The translations under genes were made by a program, and so were the position numbers. From a virus, in IMG/VR virus record IMGVR_UViG_3300042874_000086, positions 1-64,000 of that record: DNA of 64,000 nt. The stretch is one strand, 5' to 3'. Each line of letters begins with the position of its first letter. Position 1 is the first letter of the stretch. The notes beneath the pieces are model-generated. The model searched no databases. It saw only the letters and a list, made by a program, of their open reading frames with translations, and was not told the DNA's origin. This document shows positions 5,750-63,486 of this stretch, in pieces.

Positions 5750-7007
5750 GTATATCTCCTAAAGAATCAGCGGTAAACTTATCCACCCGCTGCCAATTTG
5801 TAGCAAATCTTGGAAGAAATAAACTATAATTCCCTTTTTCATCCTTAATAAGGTCGTTGAATAACACCTCAGCAGGTAATCCAACACATTTACTGATATT
5901 ATCTGTAAACCAATCCCTATCTAAGTCGGTGCGTGGGTTTACATTAACCACTACCTTTTTATCAATACTTTCACAAGTAATTGAACCCACCTTACCTTTG
6001 TTTTTGCCCTCTCCATCAGTAAAACCAACAATAGTTAAGGTACAAGAACAAATTGCCTTTAGTTTACCCCAATTCTTACTTCGTTTCCATTCATAAGGAG
6101 TATTCGTCTTAATAATTACTCCCTCCCCACCATCTTTGCGTATATTTTCATAAAATTTCTTGATATCATCCTCGGTATCTGCCATGGTTTGCTCAACAGG
6201 TACAAAAGGGTACCCTAAAATTCCACTAATCCCAAGCACCTCGTGCGCTCTTTCAAAAGCTAATAATAATGATGTTTTACTTACCCACTCCTCTAAAGTT
6301 AAAAAGTCAAATACATGATATTCAATTTTATCATCAATCTCTTTCTTGTACCCAGATTTCATAAGGCTATTAATCTTACCCGAAGTTTTCTGTCGTAACT
6401 CTCCAGACATTAATAATTCCCCATCTAATACAAAATTGTCATTAGGAAACTCTATTAATATATCTTTAAGTTTCTTTAGGGGTATCGTATTCCCTGTTCT
6501 AGTAAGAAAAGTAATTATCCCATTCTTCTTTATAGTAATACAACGTATACCATCCAGCTTCTCTTGTACTAGTAAGGGCATAATTAAATCACCGGCAGGC
6601 TCCGCTAACATACAATCAAAAGTGGGGATTAAGTTTGGTATTATTTTATTAATAGATTTAGCAGCCATCCCAATACTCAAAGACTTAGTAAGGATACTTA
6701 TAAATACCTTCTGAGTCTGCTCTGGTACTTTTACTAAAAAAGTACTAACCATAAGGTGGTCTGCACTATTAACATTTTTGGAGGATAACACATTTAGTAT
6801 GTTTAAGAAACCATTAACCTCATCTTCTGCATAATTAATACTGCTGTTTACCGAGATTTTTTGTATTCCATAAGTTAGGTATGGGTTAAAGGCATGATAT
6901 AAAAGAGCCTGAAGGTCTTCGTTGTCTTTGTGGGTGGCTAAAATAAGCTCTTTTGCCTTATTCCCCGAGGTATTTTCTATCTTTTTGATAATTTCAATAG
7001 CTGTCAT
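5724..7007 (-). CDS. ATP-dependent DNA ligase
   Basis: Seals nicks during phage replication and repair. The nucleotidyltransferase motifs are clear: motif I EKLDG, the adenylated lysine near residue 149, motif III VFDFL with DGELL before it, motif IV EGVIIK near 297, and motif V KLKA. An OB-fold C-terminus follows (VGFTDGEGKNKGKVGSITC). The N-terminal 130 residues form the small helical domain of T4-type ligases. 427 aa is slightly shorter than T4 gp30. It is expressed with the nucleotide-metabolism genes and convergent with the 104-aa gene. Confidence 0.92.
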   Translation of the reverse strand: MTAIEIIKKIENTSGNKAKELILATHKDNEDLQALLYHAFNPYLTYGIQKISVNSSINYAEDEVNGFLNILNVLSSKNVNSADHLMVSTFLVKVPEQTQKVFISILTKSLSIGMAAKSINKIIPNLIPTFDCMLAEPAGDLIMPLLVQEKLDGIRCITIKKNGIITFLTRTGNTIPLKKLKDILIEFPNDNFVLDGELLMSGELRQKTSGKINSLMKSGYKKEIDDKIEYHVFDFLTLEEWVSKTSLLLAFERAHEVLGISGILGYPFVPVEQTMADTEDDIKKFYENIRKDGGEGVIIKTNTPYEWKRSKNWGKLKAICSCTLTIVGFTDGEGKNKGKVGSITCESIDKKVVVNVNPRTDLDRDWFTDNISKCVGLPAEVLFNDLIKDEKGNYSLFLPRFATNWQRVDKFTADSLGDILKEAVSTL

Positions 7008-7304: not shown

Positions 7305-7728
7305 AATCAAAAACTCCTTCTAGTTGTTCTACACAAATACCAGCACCCACCAAATAATCAACCCCAGTAGGGTCCGTGTAGGTATCGTGGTAATAAACTG
7401 TAGTAATTCCGGATATCTCTATCAACTTAGCACACTGAATACAGGGTGAGGTTGTAATAAAAATAGAACACCCCTCGGTAGCTATACCCCTTTTAGCCGC
7501 ATTTCCTATTAGGTTAGCCTCGGCATGATGGACTATATCTTTGGTAACCCCCTCGTGTTCACAGCAATTATCCCTACCAGGAGAAGTACCATTATATCCA
7601 GATAAAAGTGGTCTATTGTCGGGGCTAACTAATAAAGCCCCTACCTTACGGCGTTTACAATGACTCAACTCCGTATAATTAAAAGCAGACTTCATATGAG
7701 CACGTTGAAATTTAGTTGCAATACCCAT
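7297..7728 (-). CDS. dCMP deaminase
   Basis: Deaminates dCMP to dUMP, the substrate of ThyX encoded just upstream. It shows the cytidine/deoxycytidylate deaminase zinc site: HAEAN (His and catalytic Glu) and SPCIQC (two Cys ligands), with the N-terminal CKRRKVGALLV strand. The 143-aa size is typical for phage dCMP deaminases. GGAGGA precedes the ATG, and the start overlaps the end of the GroES-like gene by 17 bases, so the two are translated in tandem. Confidence 0.92.
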   Translation of the reverse strand: MGIATKFQRAHMKSAFNYTELSHCKRRKVGALLVSPDNRPLLSGYNGTSPGRDNCCEHEGVTKDIVHHAEANLIGNAAKRGIATEGCSIFITTSPCIQCAKLIEISGITTVYYHDTYTDPTGVDYLVGAGICVEQLEGVFDYD

Positions 7729-7975
7729 AGATATCCTCCGACTTTAAAATATGGTACTCCGTATCAGCAAGCTTAATAATAGCACCGCTATATTTACCAA
7801 AAAATACGGTAGCTCCTACAGGGATACTAGTATCACTTTTAATTACTTTACCACTACTTGGTAACTCTTTGGTTTCCGTGGATTGTAAAATAATACCGGA
7901 CGAGGTTTCTTTCTCAACCTTAGTAGGCTCTACCAATAAATTGGTGTTGGTTGGAATAAACTCAGTTGCTTTCAT
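7712..7975 (-). CDS. GroES-like co-chaperonin
   Basis: 87 residues with GroES fold landmarks: P.NTNLLVEPTKVEKETSSGI in the first strand and mobile loop, then SSGKVIKS, IPVGATVFFGKYSG and a C-terminal YHILKSEDIYGY. The hydrophobic GII tripeptide of the mobile loop, which docks onto GroEL, is present. It is slightly shorter than host GroES (97 aa). As with T4 gp31, it may cap host GroEL to fold the phage capsid protein. It overlaps both neighbouring genes. Confidence 0.82.
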   Translation of the reverse strand: MKATEFIPTNTNLLVEPTKVEKETSSGIILQSTETKELPSSGKVIKSDTSIPVGATVFFGKYSGAIIKLADTEYHILKSEDIYGYCN

Positions 7976-8936
7976 TATTATCCATTTCTATAAGTTTAAG
8001 TTTAGCTTCTGCCAACCTACGAATTTCCCACTGTGCGTGGTTATCTAGGCGTAAATCGAAGAAGTTTTTAAGGCTGTGGTTGTCAAAACCAGACCAAACA
8101 AGTGTATACATAGCTTGAGGAATAATTCTCCTAGCCTCTTGGGGTAATACACCAGCAGCTATAGCAACATTATAATGATTTACACAAAGCGTTTCAAGAG
8201 TTTCCGTAGACAATTCATAGTGTTTTGAAACTTCCTCTGAAGAATCTTCGTAGTGAGATACAAAGTTTTTCATACGTTCCGAGTTGTAAAACTCAAAATC
8301 AACCTTTTTACCAGATACATAACGACGGCTCATCTCTTGCCAGTTAGCTTTTCGGTGTCGAATGTACTGGGCACGGGTATTTGTATCAATGTAGGATAAG
8401 AATACAGAATACTTCTCCAGCATCAACTCACATTCCGTCTCACTGTTGAAATACTTACGGATGTCCTCTACTTTTTTACCTTCAATAATATCAAATGCAG
8501 ATAGGGTAGCATGGTCTGAACATAAAGCACGGTAGTTAGTTAACAAATAATCACCAATAAACGTACCAAAGGTTAAAATATTAGGAAATTGACGGTCAGT
8601 ATCACTTTCTGTTACATAATTATAACAATTTAAGATATAATCTACACGTTCTTTACTTAGTAGTACTGGAATAAACTCAAAACTACTAGAAGGTAACCCC
8701 AAAGACTCCTGCTCAAGTCTATTAAACAATGTTTCACGACCCACCGCATTAGGGTTAGCATAACAAGCAGCCGCTACTAGGGTTACTGCCTCTACTCTAG
8801 ACTCCTCATTCATATTGGCTTTAGAGAAGTCAAAATAAGTTACCTCTGCAATATTATCTGCAAAAATATTAGACTCTGTCCCCCCTTTTATAACATACTT
8901 TAACTCTTTTTCTTTAATTTGTTGAAGATATTCCAT
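7962..8936 (-). CDS. thyX: Flavin-dependent thymidylate synthase
   Basis: Methylates dUMP to dTMP with FAD and methylenetetrahydrofolate. The ThyX signature RHR-X7-S is present as RHRKANWQEMS followed by RRY. The C-terminal QARRIIPQAMYT...NHSLKNFFDLR block supplies dUMP and FAD contacts. The ATG at 8936 is chosen because AAGGGG lies 7 nt upstream and it overlaps the previous stop codon as TGATG; the GTG six bases earlier is too close to the ribosome-binding site. The protein is 324 aa, longer than many bacterial ThyX. The neighbouring dCMP deaminase supplies dUMP. Confidence 0.92.
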   Translation of the reverse strand: MEYLQQIKEKELKYVIKGGTESNIFADNIAEVTYFDFSKANMNEESRVEAVTLVAAACYANPNAVGRETLFNRLEQESLGLPSSSFEFIPVLLSKERVDYILNCYNYVTESDTDRQFPNILTFGTFIGDYLLTNYRALCSDHATLSAFDIIEGKKVEDIRKYFNSETECELMLEKYSVFLSYIDTNTRAQYIRHRKANWQEMSRRYVSGKKVDFEFYNSERMKNFVSHYEDSSEEVSKHYELSTETLETLCVNHYNVAIAAGVLPQEARRIIPQAMYTLVWSGFDNHSLKNFFDLRLDNHAQWEIRRLAEAKLKLIEMDNNESN

Positions 8937-9527: not shown

Positions 9528-9926
9528 TTAAGATACGCTTACACGGTCTTTATTATGAAGTAATCTGTGACAGTTTGCACAAAGTAACATGCACTTCTCA
9601 ACTTCTTGCATGAATATATGAGGAGAGCGATTACTATTTTTAGATAGGCCGAAAGATTTTAGTTGGGGATTAATATGATGAAAGTCAAATACAACTGAGT
9701 TGGTGCCATCATATTGTAGACCACAATGGTTACATTTACCCCCTAAGTGGAGTATAGCATTATGAGTATTTTCTTTTCTTTTAGTTTTTTGGGAAGAACT
9801 CCTACATTTTCTACAGTAGGGGGAATGGTCTATACGTCCGTTGGGTTGTTTAGTAAAACAGCTTAGAGGGAGTTCCTCTAAACACTTTTTACAGACTTTA
9901 GTACTCACCCTTGACAACTCACACAT
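9528..9926 (-). CDS. HNH endonuclease (free-standing, homing-type)
   Basis: N-terminal zinc ribbon (CKKCLEELP...YCRKC) followed by an HNH nuclease core: CNHCG, FDFHHI, and CANCHRLLHN. This architecture is typical of mobile phage HNH endonucleases. It starts within the last 22 bases of nrdA in another frame and lies directly downstream of that intein-containing gene, a common homing-endonuclease position. It might cut intron- or intein-free nrdA alleles or simply be inserted here. Confidence 0.88.
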   Translation of the reverse strand: MCELSRVSTKVCKKCLEELPLSCFTKQPNGRIDHSPYCRKCRSSSQKTKRKENTHNAILHLGGKCNHCGLQYDGTNSVVFDFHHINPQLKSFGLSKNSNRSPHIFMQEVEKCMLLCANCHRLLHNKDRVSVS

Positions 9927-12625
9927 TCTGACTTATCAATCTTATGCTTCATGGCCTTATTCTGGGATTGTATATAGTACAGCCCATGAATCCACTCATC
10001 TTTAAAGGCTATATCATGAATCCTAGCAATTTCTTCTTCGGTCTCATCTGCAGTAAAGAATAGATTTACTGATTGTCCTTGGTCGACGTTAGGCTGACGG
10101 TGAGAAGCCATTAGCAGGATAGACTCTTGGGGTATTTCAAAGGCAGTCCTAAATATATCTCGCTCGTGTTGAGTAAGCCATCCCTCCCCCTGAACAGACC
10201 CTTGGTCATCTGCTATACGCTTCATAACCTCCTCTGTGTATACCCCACGCTCTTTCATAATGTCTAACAGCACTGGGTTAATTCTATAAACAGTGCCCCC
10301 AGCGGTATCTTGCTCATACACATTAGCGAATACTGGCTGTATTCCCTCACTAACTCCCCACTGGATTACTGATGTGGACTTAGTGGGGGGTAGTGCAAGT
10401 CTATGAGAACAGCGTTCCCCAGTTCCTACCATCCATTCAGGCTCTCCCAACTCTCTTGCAAGTAACCTTGACGCTTCTAAAGTTTGCTCATTTAGCATTT
10501 TGAAAAGCGATTGATTAAACATAATAGATTGTAAATCACCAAACACCCAAGACTTCGTTTGGTAATAGGTAGATTGACCAAGAACTCCCAATCCTTGTGC
10601 ACGGGACTTCTCAGTAAATGCAATAACTCTTTCAAAACCACTTTCTTGTTTTGCTTTAATCAACATATCTGAAATTACTGCGTCTAAAAAGATAGTAGCA
10701 ATCTGTGGTGTTTTAGTACCAACCCACTCATCGTATTTTGCAATATTTAGAGAGGATAACACGCAAGTAAATGAATGATTTTCATCAGACATTAAAGCAA
10801 TCTCTGAACAGTTTCCAGTAAGTACTCCATTAAACATTAATTTATTAACTAAAGGCTCTGTGCCACAATAAGTAGGGGCTGATTTTCCCTCATCCTCAAC
10901 AGACACTACTTGTACAAACTGTCGAGCCTGTCTTTGGTACTCTCTCCTAGTTGGGACAACCCTTGATGTCTGCAACCCTAAGTCTAACAAAGTATTCAAC
11001 TCTGACCCAGCAATTAATAATCTATAAGTTTGTTTTGTCCAATACTGTTTATACTCCCCAGTACCATTATTTGTAGGTAACCAACTATATCCTGCGTCAG
11101 CTCCTTTCGATATAGTACTATGTACCCCCAACTCTTGTAGGAGAAGTAGAACTTCTTTAAGGAATGATAATTCAATACTGGCTACTTGAATACTCTCTGT
11201 TCCATTATTATTAGTCAAAGTACCATCTGCGTCTAAGTACCCAGATACCCATAGCAACCTATCCTCTACACAAAAGCTACTATTAGGGACAAAAAACTTA
11301 TCTTCTAGTATACCCGCAGGGTATTGTAGGTTTAGTATCCTGCCTTCTTTTGAGTAGCTTACGGAGTAAAACCCAGTAAATCTAGATACTAGTGTTTGTT
11401 TGTTATCGTGTAGTGATATCCTTGGTTTATTAGACTTTTTATATACTGTACCATCCCCCGAGTGAAACCCATTTACGTACGCAAGGGGTAACCTACTATT
11501 ACCATGAGTTATAGGCTCTAAAGAGAATTTAATTAGCTTGTCCCCAGGTACCAAGTCAATCGTACGTTTTTCTACCTGTTTACTATAACCGTCCATTATA
11601 TACCACTTATGGTAAGGGGTAGCCTCAATAGTAGTATAGTTACCCAAAGTAACTTTAATAACAGCCTGACATTCTGATGTTTTAAATAAATCAGTTAAAG
11701 ACCACTCTTTTCCATTCCAACACTCCAAAGACTCCCCAACCACTTGTTCAATATTTATATACCCATAGTTTTTTGTAAGAACTTTGGTATCTCCAGTTAC
11801 ACATAAGTTTGAGTGGCGTACTTTAAACCCCCTGTCTTTATACACTTTAGGTGCGTGTCTATTAACCTTATCTAAAAAGAAGAAGTAACCCTTACCTTTA
11901 GTTGCCTTAGTCTTTAACATACGCTCCCAAAGATAGTCAGCGTGGTCTGGGTCTCTATCAAATAAAGTCTCAAACTCATCCGTGATATTCCAACCAATAT
12001 TCCAACCCATATCATCAGCCACTAACTGGTCTACAAGCTCATCAAAGTCATCGTGTAGGGGGTTTAGGTACATACCACAACTTCCTCTACGTGAATTTCC
12101 TTGTGATACGTCCTCCATATCTCTTACTACCCCAGAAGCAAACTGCATGATACCATTTGCAGTCCCCCCTTTTGAAATAGGTGTCCCACGGGAGCGGATA
12201 GGGTCTAAACAAGTAGAGGTTCCGTAACCACGTTGAGTTAGCTGTGCCATCTCTTTTCTAGCTGTATAAAAAGACTCAATAGAGTCTCCAACGTAAGTAC
12301 CAGAGCAACTAATAGGATGTCCTCGGTTATTCCCCATATTTGTTAATACAGGAGTGGAGGGAGATAACCAACCATTCCACATCTCAGTAAAGAAACACTC
12401 CTCCCAACTACTATAACCAAAATCAGAGGGTATATTAAAGGTAGTTAACCCAGCCGCCCTTTTAGCAATACGTGTGTACATATCCTTAGGGGTTTCGGCT
12501 GTATCCAAGTAACTTTGATTAACCAGCATTTGGTAACCAGCTGTAGTCAGCCACTGGGGAGCTAATCCATCTTGTTGTAGTTGTTTTCTTTTATGAGATA
12601 ATCTCTCGTATTTTGTTTTACCCAT
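9905..12625 (-). CDS. nrdA: Ribonucleotide reductase class I alpha subunit with intein
   Basis: Reduces ribonucleotides to deoxyribonucleotides with NrdB. The ATG at 12625 is preferred: AGGAG lies 7 nt upstream and it overlaps the nrdB stop as TAATG. The precursor is 906 aa; residues 275-605 are an intein, leaving a 575-aa mature enzyme without the N-terminal ATP cone of E. coli NrdA. Active-site Cys are visible: C107 (ISCSG), the thiyl-radical Cys in NL-C-SE (C606, first residue after the intein) and C621 (TCVLSSLN). The C-terminal CVSCQG supplies the reducing dithiol. The C-terminus overlaps the HNH gene. Confidence 0.93.
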   Translation of the reverse strand: MGKTKYERLSHKRKQLQQDGLAPQWLTTAGYQMLVNQSYLDTAETPKDMYTRIAKRAAGLTTFNIPSDFGYSSWEECFFTEMWNGWLSPSTPVLTNMGNNRGHPISCSGTYVGDSIESFYTARKEMAQLTQRGYGTSTCLDPIRSRGTPISKGGTANGIMQFASGVVRDMEDVSQGNSRRGSCGMYLNPLHDDFDELVDQLVADDMGWNIGWNITDEFETLFDRDPDHADYLWERMLKTKATKGKGYFFFLDKVNRHAPKVYKDRGFKVRHSNLCVTGDTKVLTKNYGYINIEQVVGESLECWNGKEWSLTDLFKTSECQAVIKVTLGNYTTIEATPYHKWYIMDGYSKQVEKRTIDLVPGDKLIKFSLEPITHGNSRLPLAYVNGFHSGDGTVYKKSNKPRISLHDNKQTLVSRFTGFYSVSYSKEGRILNLQYPAGILEDKFFVPNSSFCVEDRLLWVSGYLDADGTLTNNNGTESIQVASIELSFLKEVLLLLQELGVHSTISKGADAGYSWLPTNNGTGEYKQYWTKQTYRLLIAGSELNTLLDLGLQTSRVVPTRREYQRQARQFVQVVSVEDEGKSAPTYCGTEPLVNKLMFNGVLTGNCSEIALMSDENHSFTCVLSSLNIAKYDEWVGTKTPQIATIFLDAVISDMLIKAKQESGFERVIAFTEKSRAQGLGVLGQSTYYQTKSWVFGDLQSIMFNQSLFKMLNEQTLEASRLLARELGEPEWMVGTGERCSHRLALPPTKSTSVIQWGVSEGIQPVFANVYEQDTAGGTVYRINPVLLDIMKERGVYTEEVMKRIADDQGSVQGEGWLTQHERDIFRTAFEIPQESILLMASHRQPNVDQGQSVNLFFTADETEEEIARIHDIAFKDEWIHGLYYIQSQNKAMKHKIDKSECVSCQG
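10811..11803 (-). mobile_element. Intein with LAGLIDADG-type homing endonuclease in nrdA
   Basis: 331 codons inserted immediately before the thiyl-radical cysteine codon. Block A starts CVTGDTKVLT; a splicing block B appears as TIEATPYHKW (T..H). Two dodecapeptide motifs, YVNGFHSGDGT and WVSGYLDADGT, show an intact LAGLIDADG nuclease domain. The C-terminal junction reads VLTGN then C, so Asn and the +1 Cys are present. The usual penultimate His is Gly, an atypical but tolerated state in some inteins. The exteins join as SNL-CSEIAL, matching the conserved NLCxE motif. Confidence 0.92.
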
Positions 12626-13629
12626 TATTTTACTCCTAGGAAAGGTTTTCTTGAAAATCCATCTAAAGACCACCCACGGCGATACTGGTTAGTACCACTA
12701 GCAAAAAAGTCATGTACTTTAATGGAGTTGGCTCCTTTATAGAACCAATCAGCTATTGGATTTTCTTTTATTTCATATAAAGGCTCCATACCAAGGTCAG
12801 ATAGAACTTGGTTAGCCCTAGACCTAATGAAATTTTTCAACTGAGAAGCAGTTATATCATTAATAGCTGCTTCCCCTGGGAATCCATAGTCAATTACGGA
12901 GTCTTCGTGGGCTACAATCTTCTCTGTTAATTTTCTTACTGCTTTTTCGTGCTCCACTAGGGGGAAACTTCCATATACTGTTGGGTACTCTTCAATATAA
13001 ACATTGTGTAAGTAAGTAGCGAAAACACCATGAATAACTTCATCATTTACTACATAGTCTACACCAGTTAGTGTATTAGGAATCATTTTATGACCATTAG
13101 CTTTAAAAGATTTCAACATAGCAAAATTACTAAATAAGAGTACTTGCTCAATTAAAGCTACGGTAGCTAAAGATAAAGGCTTATCCTTGTCCAAGTTACT
13201 CGTAATTTTGTTTAGGAAGTCTAACTTCTCTTTAAGAACTAATATAGTTTGTTGGTTTTTAGCAGTATCTTCTGGGTCTATATTAAGTACATCCGACATC
13301 TTTTGATAAAAGAAAGCGTGTACAGACTTTTCCATAGCAGCTATTTGTGTGCAAGCCCCGTCAATCTCTGAGTGAGGAAACCAGTTAGCTATACTACTCC
13401 ACACATCTCCTACTTTTTGTTCAATTTCTACAAACAACTGCAGAGTAAGTGTGATTAAGTGATAAGACTCTCTAGACATATTATGACGGTAGTCTTGTAT
13501 ATCATTCTCTACTTTAATTTCTTGAGCAAACCAGTTTATATCCTGTTGTTGTTCCATTAATTCTTTAGCAAATGGGTACAAATATAAACCGAACATACTA
13601 TTTGGAGTCTCTATAGGTAATTTAACCAT
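12625..13629 (-). CDS. nrdB: Ribonucleotide reductase class I beta subunit
   Basis: Radical-generating partner of NrdA. Ferritin-like helices carry carboxylate/His metal ligands: E in WFAQEIKVENDIQDYRH, EKSVHAFFY (Glu/His plus the candidate radical Tyr), and EVIHGVFATYLH. 334 aa fits the family. The stop codon overlaps the nrdA start (TAATG), as expected for equimolar subunits. The spacing in E-KS-V-H differs by one from the usual ExxH, so the exact metal ligands need a structural model. Confidence 0.9.
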   Translation of the reverse strand: MVKLPIETPNSMFGLYLYPFAKELMEQQQDINWFAQEIKVENDIQDYRHNMSRESYHLITLTLQLFVEIEQKVGDVWSSIANWFPHSEIDGACTQIAAMEKSVHAFFYQKMSDVLNIDPEDTAKNQQTILVLKEKLDFLNKITSNLDKDKPLSLATVALIEQVLLFSNFAMLKSFKANGHKMIPNTLTGVDYVVNDEVIHGVFATYLHNVYIEEYPTVYGSFPLVEHEKAVRKLTEKIVAHEDSVIDYGFPGEAAINDITASQLKNFIRSRANQVLSDLGMEPLYEIKENPIADWFYKGANSIKVHDFFASGTNQYRRGWSLDGFSRKPFLGVK

Positions 13630-21883: not shown

Positions 21884-22237
21884 ATGCCAAAAGTAAAATA
21901 TAGTGGTAATGGTATTACTACAATTGGTGTTGACTTCGTAGATGGTGTTGAGTATGACCTATCAGACAAAGCATGTTCATATGTACTTGAAAACTTCCCT
22001 ACTCACTTCTCTGTAGTTGGAAAACAAACTAAGGTTGTTGAGGTTGCACCTAAAGTAGAAGAAGTAACACTCGAAGTTGTTGCTGATGTTGTAGCAGATG
22101 AGCCTGTGCTTATGGAAGTTACTGCGGAAGTTACTGCGGAAGTTACTGCGGAAGTTACTGCGGAAGTTACTGCGGAAGTTACTGCGGAAGTTACTGCGGA
22201 AGTTACTGTAGAAAAACCATCTCGTCGTCGAAGTTAA
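21884..22237 (+). CDS. Small head-region protein with EVTA repeats (117 aa)
   Basis: Residues 1-55 form a compact domain (YSGNGITTIGVDFVDGVEYD then VLENFPTHFSVV) like short proteins found after capsid genes in siphophages. The rest is a Val/Glu-rich repeat with eight EVT(A/V) units and a basic end KPSRRRS. Could be a decoration or head-completion protein; no enzymatic motif. The C-terminal repeat arises from a 12-bp tandem repeat. Confidence 0.65.
   Translation: MPKVKYSGNGITTIGVDFVDGVEYDLSDKACSYVLENFPTHFSVVGKQTKVVEVAPKVEEVTLEVVADVVADEPVLMEVTAEVTAEVTAEVTAEVTAEVTAEVTAEVTVEKPSRRRS
22115..22210 (+). repeat. 12-bp coding tandem repeat (8 units)
   Basis: GAAGTTACTGCG repeated eight times; the last unit differs (GTA for GCG). 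Units are essentially identical at DNA level, indicating recent expansion by slippage; each adds EVTA without disturbing frame. Confidence 0.92.
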
Positions 22238-63078: not shown

Positions 63079-63486
63079 ATGCCTAAACTTAATAAAGTAG
63101 AGATAATTTGCCCAATACGTGGTAGTTTTTTACAACAGCCTAATAATCACCTACAGGGGAAGGGCTGTAGTAATTGTCAAAAGAATGGGTTTCAGAAGGC
63201 ACTCCCAGCTACTTTATATTACTTAAAAGTTACTTCTGGGGATACTGTACTATACAAAATAGGTATTACAAATAGAACAGTTAAACAAAGGTATACCACA
63301 ACAAACCATAACTTAATAAATATAGTATTTATTAAGGAGTTTAAAAGTGGTTTAGATTGTTATAATGAAGAGCAGCGGTTACTTAAAAAGTATAAAGACT
63401 ACCTATATAAAGGAAGCCCTATACTGAGCTCTGGCAACACAGAACTTTTTACAAAGGATATTATGTGTCTAGAATACATTACATAA
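63079..63486 (+). CDS. GIY-YIG-type endonuclease with truncated DUF723 zinc region
   Basis: N-terminal VEIICPIRGSFLQQPNNHLQ with GCSNC is the end of a DUF723 repeat, the zinc-binding DNA-reading module. LYYLKVTSGDTVLYKIGITN with RTVKQRY is a GIY-YIG-superfamily nuclease. Homologues usually have longer N-termini (HxxKYDYS...), so this copy may be shortened or degenerating. It lies on the strand opposite to the helicase and primase genes, between them, as mobile endonucleases do. Confidence 0.75.
   Translation: MPKLNKVEIICPIRGSFLQQPNNHLQGKGCSNCQKNGFQKALPATLYYLKVTSGDTVLYKIGITNRTVKQRYTTTNHNLINIVFIKEFKSGLDCYNEEQRLLKKYKDYLYKGSPILSSGNTELFTKDIMCLEYIT

Follow-up and report, generated by a model that had tools for sequence, protein, structure and literature searches.

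The nrdA gene in the window, by which we mean the whole stretch of 64,000 nucleotides analyzed here, taken from a virus record of 89,672 bases, encodes a class I ribonucleotide reductase (RNR) large subunit interrupted by an intein directly before the radical cysteine. Very probably, the insert is an ordinary mobile intein of class 1 (Cys1/Asn/Cys+1) that harbors a LAGLIDADG homing endonuclease and occupies a heavily used site in phage class I RNR genes, and the HNH gene adjacent to nrdA is a separate element. This interpretation draws on gene structure, family membership, intact motifs, a predicted fold, a sporadic distribution and signs of transfer between nrdA genes. The initial annotation of the locus was an accurate observation of what is most likely ordinary biology, namely one more intein of the known nrdA-site type.

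The nrdA precursor and its intein

The nrdA precursor coding sequence occupies positions 9905 to 12625 on the minus strand, with an ATG at 12625, a stop at 9905 and 906 unbroken codons (906 amino acids). A broken frame, which the initial annotation had named as evidence that would count against its reading, was looked for and the frame is intact. Profile searches place the Pfam models Ribonuc_red_lgC and Ribonuc_red_lgN both above their cut-offs in the precursor. The N-extein (residues 1 to 274; 11804 to 12625, minus strand) ends in HSNL, and the C-extein (301 amino acids plus stop; 9905 to 10810, minus strand) begins with CSEI and ends with CVSCQG. Between them lies the 331-residue intein (10811 to 11803, minus strand), which runs from Cys1 to Gly330-Asn331 and is inserted in frame, so that the layout is HSNL / intein ending in LTGN / CSEI.

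Removal of residues 275 to 605 leaves a 575-residue R1 protein with a continuous sequence and an NLCxE active-site loop. Across the junction, the spliced product (RHSNL-CSEIAL) matches both intein-free alleles and solved class I R1 chains, and its best PDB matches are the R1 structures 6dqx (E 2.9e-96) and 6dqw. The C-terminal junction, Gly330-Asn331 / Cys+1, spans positions 10808 to 10816 on the minus strand. Cys+1 sits within NLCxE, where alignment reveals continuity with intein-free alleles, and we take it to be the radical cysteine that corresponds to C439 of E. coli NrdA. The placement originally reported, directly before this cysteine, is thus exact.

The nrdB gene for the small subunit (12625 to 13629, minus strand; PF00268, 142.9 bits) is located upstream (5') of nrdA in the list of open reading frames (ORFs), and its stop shares one base with the nrdA start. 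At the diiron helix, NrdB of the window has the spacing E-x3-H (MEKSVHAFFY); most R2 proteins have E-x2-H there, with the E. coli spacing. The E-x3-H spacing is identical in the five closest relatives described below, related E-x3-H forms occur at three other loci (L011, L014 and L044), and the solved R2 structure 9dws aligns to this helix with a one-residue gap.

The intein begins with CVTGDT and ends with GVLTGN. Block B is TPYH (Thr62 and His65; 11609 to 11620, minus strand), and Cys1, Thr62 and His65 are invariant in the 21 inteins of alignment A1, which comprises the window and 20 homologs from named phages and one plasmid. Because Cys1, block B, the C-terminal Asn331 and Cys+1 are all present, the element is a class 1 intein by its catalytic residues. 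Both LAGLIDADG motifs are intact, as initially described: motif 1, LAYVNGFHSGDG (11450 to 11485, minus strand), keeps its acidic residue, and motif 2, LLWVSGYLDADG (11222 to 11257, minus strand), keeps its acidic Asp, which is Asn in the closest intein found. An alignment of 62 sequences shows little or no variation at Cys1, TxxH, the acidic motif residues and Cys+1.

The LAGLIDADG_3 model scores 51.3 bits against a cut-off of 22.5 and TIGR01445 (intein_Nterm) scores 28.3 bits against 24.5, whereas Pfam Intein_splicing, at 23.5 bits, remains below its cut-off of 35.8. Because the first two models exceed their cut-offs and homologs occur in 320 of 50,697 phage records, a chance match is excluded. 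An AF2 model of the intein (m845541e3ac32), computed from an alignment of the window sequence and 61 natural homologs, has a mean pLDDT of 94.9 and predicts a complete Hint splicing domain together with a two-repeat LAGLIDADG nuclease. The model matches the TliVMA intein (Z 24.9, 297 aligned residues, 4.5 A), PI-PfuI (Z 23.2, 298 aligned, 5.1 A) and PI-SceI, and the splicing domain alone matches the Ssp DnaB mini-intein 1mi8 (Z 19.0, 133 aligned, 2.2 A).

From these features we infer that the protein splices, that its nuclease cleaves DNA and supports homing, and that the unspliced precursor is inactive. The precursor, once translated, would be expected to splice autocatalytically. Cys1 would carry out the N-S shift, the N-extein would then be transferred to Cys+1, the extein nucleophile and eventual radical cysteine, and Asn331 would cyclize without help from a penultimate His. 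HSNL would thereby be joined to CSEI, and the ligated NrdA would be the active enzyme; RNR chemistry suggests that ribonucleotides could be reduced by the ligated protein only. In co-infecting phages whose nrdA is intein-free, the LAGLIDADG nuclease would be expected to cleave that gene, and repair would then copy the intein in. Points against this explanation are the Pfam Intein_splicing score below its cut-off, the mismatches of the L001 allele described below, and the fact that the third step, Asn cyclization, would proceed in the window without either of the usual His helpers, at positions G:6 (penultimate) and F:13.

Distribution and transfer of the intein

Among the 320 phage records with intein homologs, 306 match over at least 80% of the intein length. 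They include the record of Vibrio phage ICP1, which is annotated 'intein-containing', and SPbeta-type bnrdE. The ICP1 literature describes nrdA as a particularly common intein site (PMC9040626). A megablast search of window positions 1 to 25000 against phages gave no match, and viral contigs scanned with the intein sequence alone yielded no relative, so alignment A1 was used instead. A Pfam Intein_splicing search of the 89,672-base record revealed no second intein, its one match being the present intein, below cut-off; a control search with this model was positive in six of 14 named genomes.

The initial annotation proposed a comparison with intein-free nrdA alleles in relatives, and tblastn and allele alignment established that the five nearest NrdA relatives identified (L001 to L005) are all intein-free and align across the junction. 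Extein identity to NrdA of the window is 82% for L001, 71% for L002, and 62-63% for L003 to L005. In contrast, the closest intein found, in IMG/VR contig L084, is 72% identical over 331 residues, and the exteins around it are just 33-34% identical to those of the window. This disparity suggests that the intein moved between distant RNR genes long after those genes had diverged, and mobility between distantly related nrdA genes therefore appears well supported by the alignments. The locus offers a clean example of apparent intein transfer between distant phage RNR genes, with the closest relatives of the host gene intein-free.

Vertical descent is not absent, however, since identity matrices of intein and C-extein from 74 sequences are weakly correlated (r = 0.27, p = 0.001). 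Comparison of the window and L084 inteins gives pN 0.198 and pS 0.727, and the Hint and nuclease parts are alike in this respect. The low pN relative to pS fits constraint on both the splicing and nuclease parts, although this estimate of selection is rough because synonymous sites are near saturation. Around the insertion site, the intein-free L001 allele equals the window at 21 of 30 bases; with the remaining nine of 30 different, cutting of L001, and homing into the known relatives, is uncertain.

Several other insertions at or near this site were observed. In L006 to L010, which are near-identical contigs and apparently one lineage, a diverged insert lies one residue later (NIC / CLAG..LTGN / SEI; positions 6001 to 8739 of L008). 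In this shifted register, as read from the L008 sequence and from tblastn for L006 to L010, the radical cysteine falls at position -1 and Ser at +1. Burkholderia phage FLC6 (L062, 3001 to 3417) has a 139-amino-acid mini-intein that lacks a nuclease, at the identical nrdA site. The nrdA gene of L133 contains a probable second intein before the PIS-C cysteine (RGLPIS/CFASGT), in addition to one ending at CSEI.

The C-terminal junction and alternative readings

The penultimate residue of the intein is Gly330, as had been read from the sequence, and the penultimate His that is a common but non-obligatory feature of class 1 inteins is therefore absent. The homologs in alignment A1 share this character: 18 of 20 have penultimate Gly, AM24 has Met, DAC16 has Ser, and none has His. 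The C-terminal junctions of a larger set of homologs were also tallied. This set comprised 88 loci (L084 to L171), of which 87 gave an ORF (L162 did not) and 85 a resolved C-terminal junction (L101 and L126 did not); of 181 confirmed places in viral contigs, the best 80 were retained. Because the search patterns were built from N-terminal blocks, the set was not selected on the C-terminus. The junction pattern allowed any penultimate residue but called for N or Q as the last one, with C/S/T-x-E after it, so that junctions with other last residues would escape it. The 85 junctions represent 67 different 16-residue ends, and some are near-duplicates. A separate pattern search in which Gly was fixed was kept out of the tally, and N-junction counts were left out because the automatic N-boundary was wrong in several multi-domain cases.

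In these 85 junctions, with viral contigs represented by the best 80 of 181 places, the penultimate residue is Gly in 83, Met in one and Ser in one, with His in none; the intein ends in Gln in 49 cases and in Asn in the other 36; and the +1 residue is Cys in all 85. Within the same set, His occurs at F:13 in 37 homologs, and 48 have neither the G:6 nor the F:13 His. The window, with Asn at F:13, also lacks both. The junction, initially called atypical, is thus atypical relative to inteins in general, but it is the norm in its own family (Gly in 83 of the 85 junctions tallied). The absence of a penultimate His characterizes the nrdA-site intein family as a whole, which corrects a tempting misreading of the junction. 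Natural junctions of this family lack the His and end in either Asn or Gln, and they lend themselves to probing catalysis of the final splicing step. We found no count of this junction across the family in the open-licence literature and claim no priority for ours.

The initial annotation went further and proposed that splicing could be slow or conditional (redox-gated, for instance) as a result of the Gly junction, in which case the intein would act as a switch on dNTP supply. Splicing is required to place the radical cysteine beside its loop, and RNR would be limited by any delay. The literature describes regulated inteins, an intein located between metal ligands of Aquifex NrdB is reported to raise iron loading (PMC8772380), and the window intein has no His at G:6 or F:13. 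However, a residue that is the norm across the family, as Gly is, says nothing particular about nrdA of the window, and close relatives do without any intein. Moreover, a mycobacteriophage intein with penultimate Gly is described as splicing to completion in its natural form and as strongly slower when Gly is changed to His (PMC5050341), and the G:6 and F:13 His residues are reported not to be needed by all inteins, with about 5% of functional inteins having another residue at G:6 (PMC4031507). Gly therefore provides no basis for slow or conditional splicing; that deduction was rejected, and we consider the switch itself improbable. Somewhat less doubtful, though still unlikely, is the idea that phage inteins at the nrdA site belong to a broad subclass in which the usual His help in the last splicing step is replaced. 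Perhaps the partly folded RNR active-site loop, the source of Cys+1, activates C-terminal cleavage, such that splicing is tuned to correct RNR folding. This idea stems from the nearly constant Gly at G:6, the absence of the F:13 His in more than half of the homologs, and the use of either Asn or Gln as the cyclizing residue.

Alternatively, the intein might be decaying, with its nuclease or splicing domain already dead and the element heading for loss. Its sporadic distribution, the Asn in place of the motif 2 acid in L084, and the degenerating phage nrdA genes described in Campylobacter phages (PMC3653736) would be compatible with such a fate. Yet the window intein keeps every block, both acids and an open frame, and pN is far below pS, which makes decay very improbable. 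Group I introns with HNH genes are often found in phage RNR genes (PMC3653736, PMC7344957), and the insert could in principle be part of such an intron or another mRNA-level element. An Rfam search of the window, with zero matches at gathering scores, argues against a group I intron around nrdA, and the in-frame insert carries a Hint block at each end; a protein-level intein is therefore preferred, and an origin at the mRNA level is almost certainly wrong.

The HNH gene and related systems

A free-standing HNH endonuclease-like gene, P0002 (9528 to 9926, minus strand; phrog_2255 HNH endonuclease, E 1.4e-26), overlaps the 3' end of nrdA by 22 nucleotides if translated from its ATG, or by four nucleotides (GTGA) if translated from an in-frame GTG at 9908. 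No Pfam model scores above cut-off in P0002. In L001, where synteny with the window extends downstream of nrdA, this slot holds a different HNH gene (7694 to 8335, with an HHIIPK motif), whose score of 20.7 bits with the Pfam HNH model is slightly under the cut-off of 21.4; tblastn with P0002 at E values up to 1 gave no match in L001. ORF inspection revealed no endonuclease-like ORF directly after nrdA in L002 to L005. Relatives of P0002 occur at 20 loci, and at one of these (L069) the relative lies just downstream of an intein-free nrdA, which makes the HNH gene look independent of the intein. Phage genomes have been described in which homing endonucleases replace one another at the same slots (PMC10448857). 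By gene content and homology, P0002 appears to be such an exchangeable free-standing endonuclease gene, sporadic at this slot. This agrees with the earlier suggestion that it is a second mobile element at the locus.

Regarding known systems, the NrdA intein of Vibrio phage ICP1 (gp203; PMC9040626, PMC10448857) resembles that of the window in its site (SSNL/C), domain layout, penultimate Gly and lack of His at F:13, with 41.5% identity. However, it ends in Gln rather than Asn, ICP1 NrdA is longer and belongs to a different branch, and an HNH gene directly after nrdA was not seen in the annotated stretch. An intein is also described in SPbeta bnrdE (PMC8270828). In the SPbeta-type example from Bacillus phage Goe13 (L061), the site (FSNL/C..TGN/C) and the Gly-Asn end are like those of the window, but the intein has 385 amino acids, its host gene is annotated bnrdE (class Ib), and block F has Asp in place of Cys. 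The L084 intein has a C-terminal sequence, NKLMFNGVLTGN/C, identical to that of the window, although its host NrdA is only 33-34% identical and its motif 2 acid is replaced by Asn. The characterized mycobacteriophage intein with penultimate Gly (PMC5050341), which is in Bethlehem gp51 (RDF), is likewise a class 1 phage intein; it resides in another host protein and is likened to the window by description, not by sequence.

The locus further resembles HEG-islands and the free-standing HNH genes, Aeh1 mobE among them, that are found close to RNR genes of phages; in these systems, homing endonuclease genes adjoin or interrupt nrdA and cognate slots hold unrelated endonucleases (PMC10448857, PMC3653736). 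A HEG-island has homing endonuclease genes on either side of an essential gene or module; nrdA of the window has a free-standing endonuclease gene on one flank only, the 3' side, besides the intein inside it, with nrdB on the 5' side, and so lies outside the HEG-island definition.

Elsewhere in the window, a T5orf172 endonuclease-like gene (63079 to 63486; PF10544, 21.5 bits against a cut-off of 20) is flanked closely by a primase-like gene on one side and by the 3' end of a helicase-like gene on the other, both named by inspection, and is likely another mobile endonuclease of the phage, judging from this profile match. Simple-repeat proteins, with SAARSAAWSSA-type and VTAEVTAE runs, are encoded at positions 1 to 456 and 21884 to 22237.
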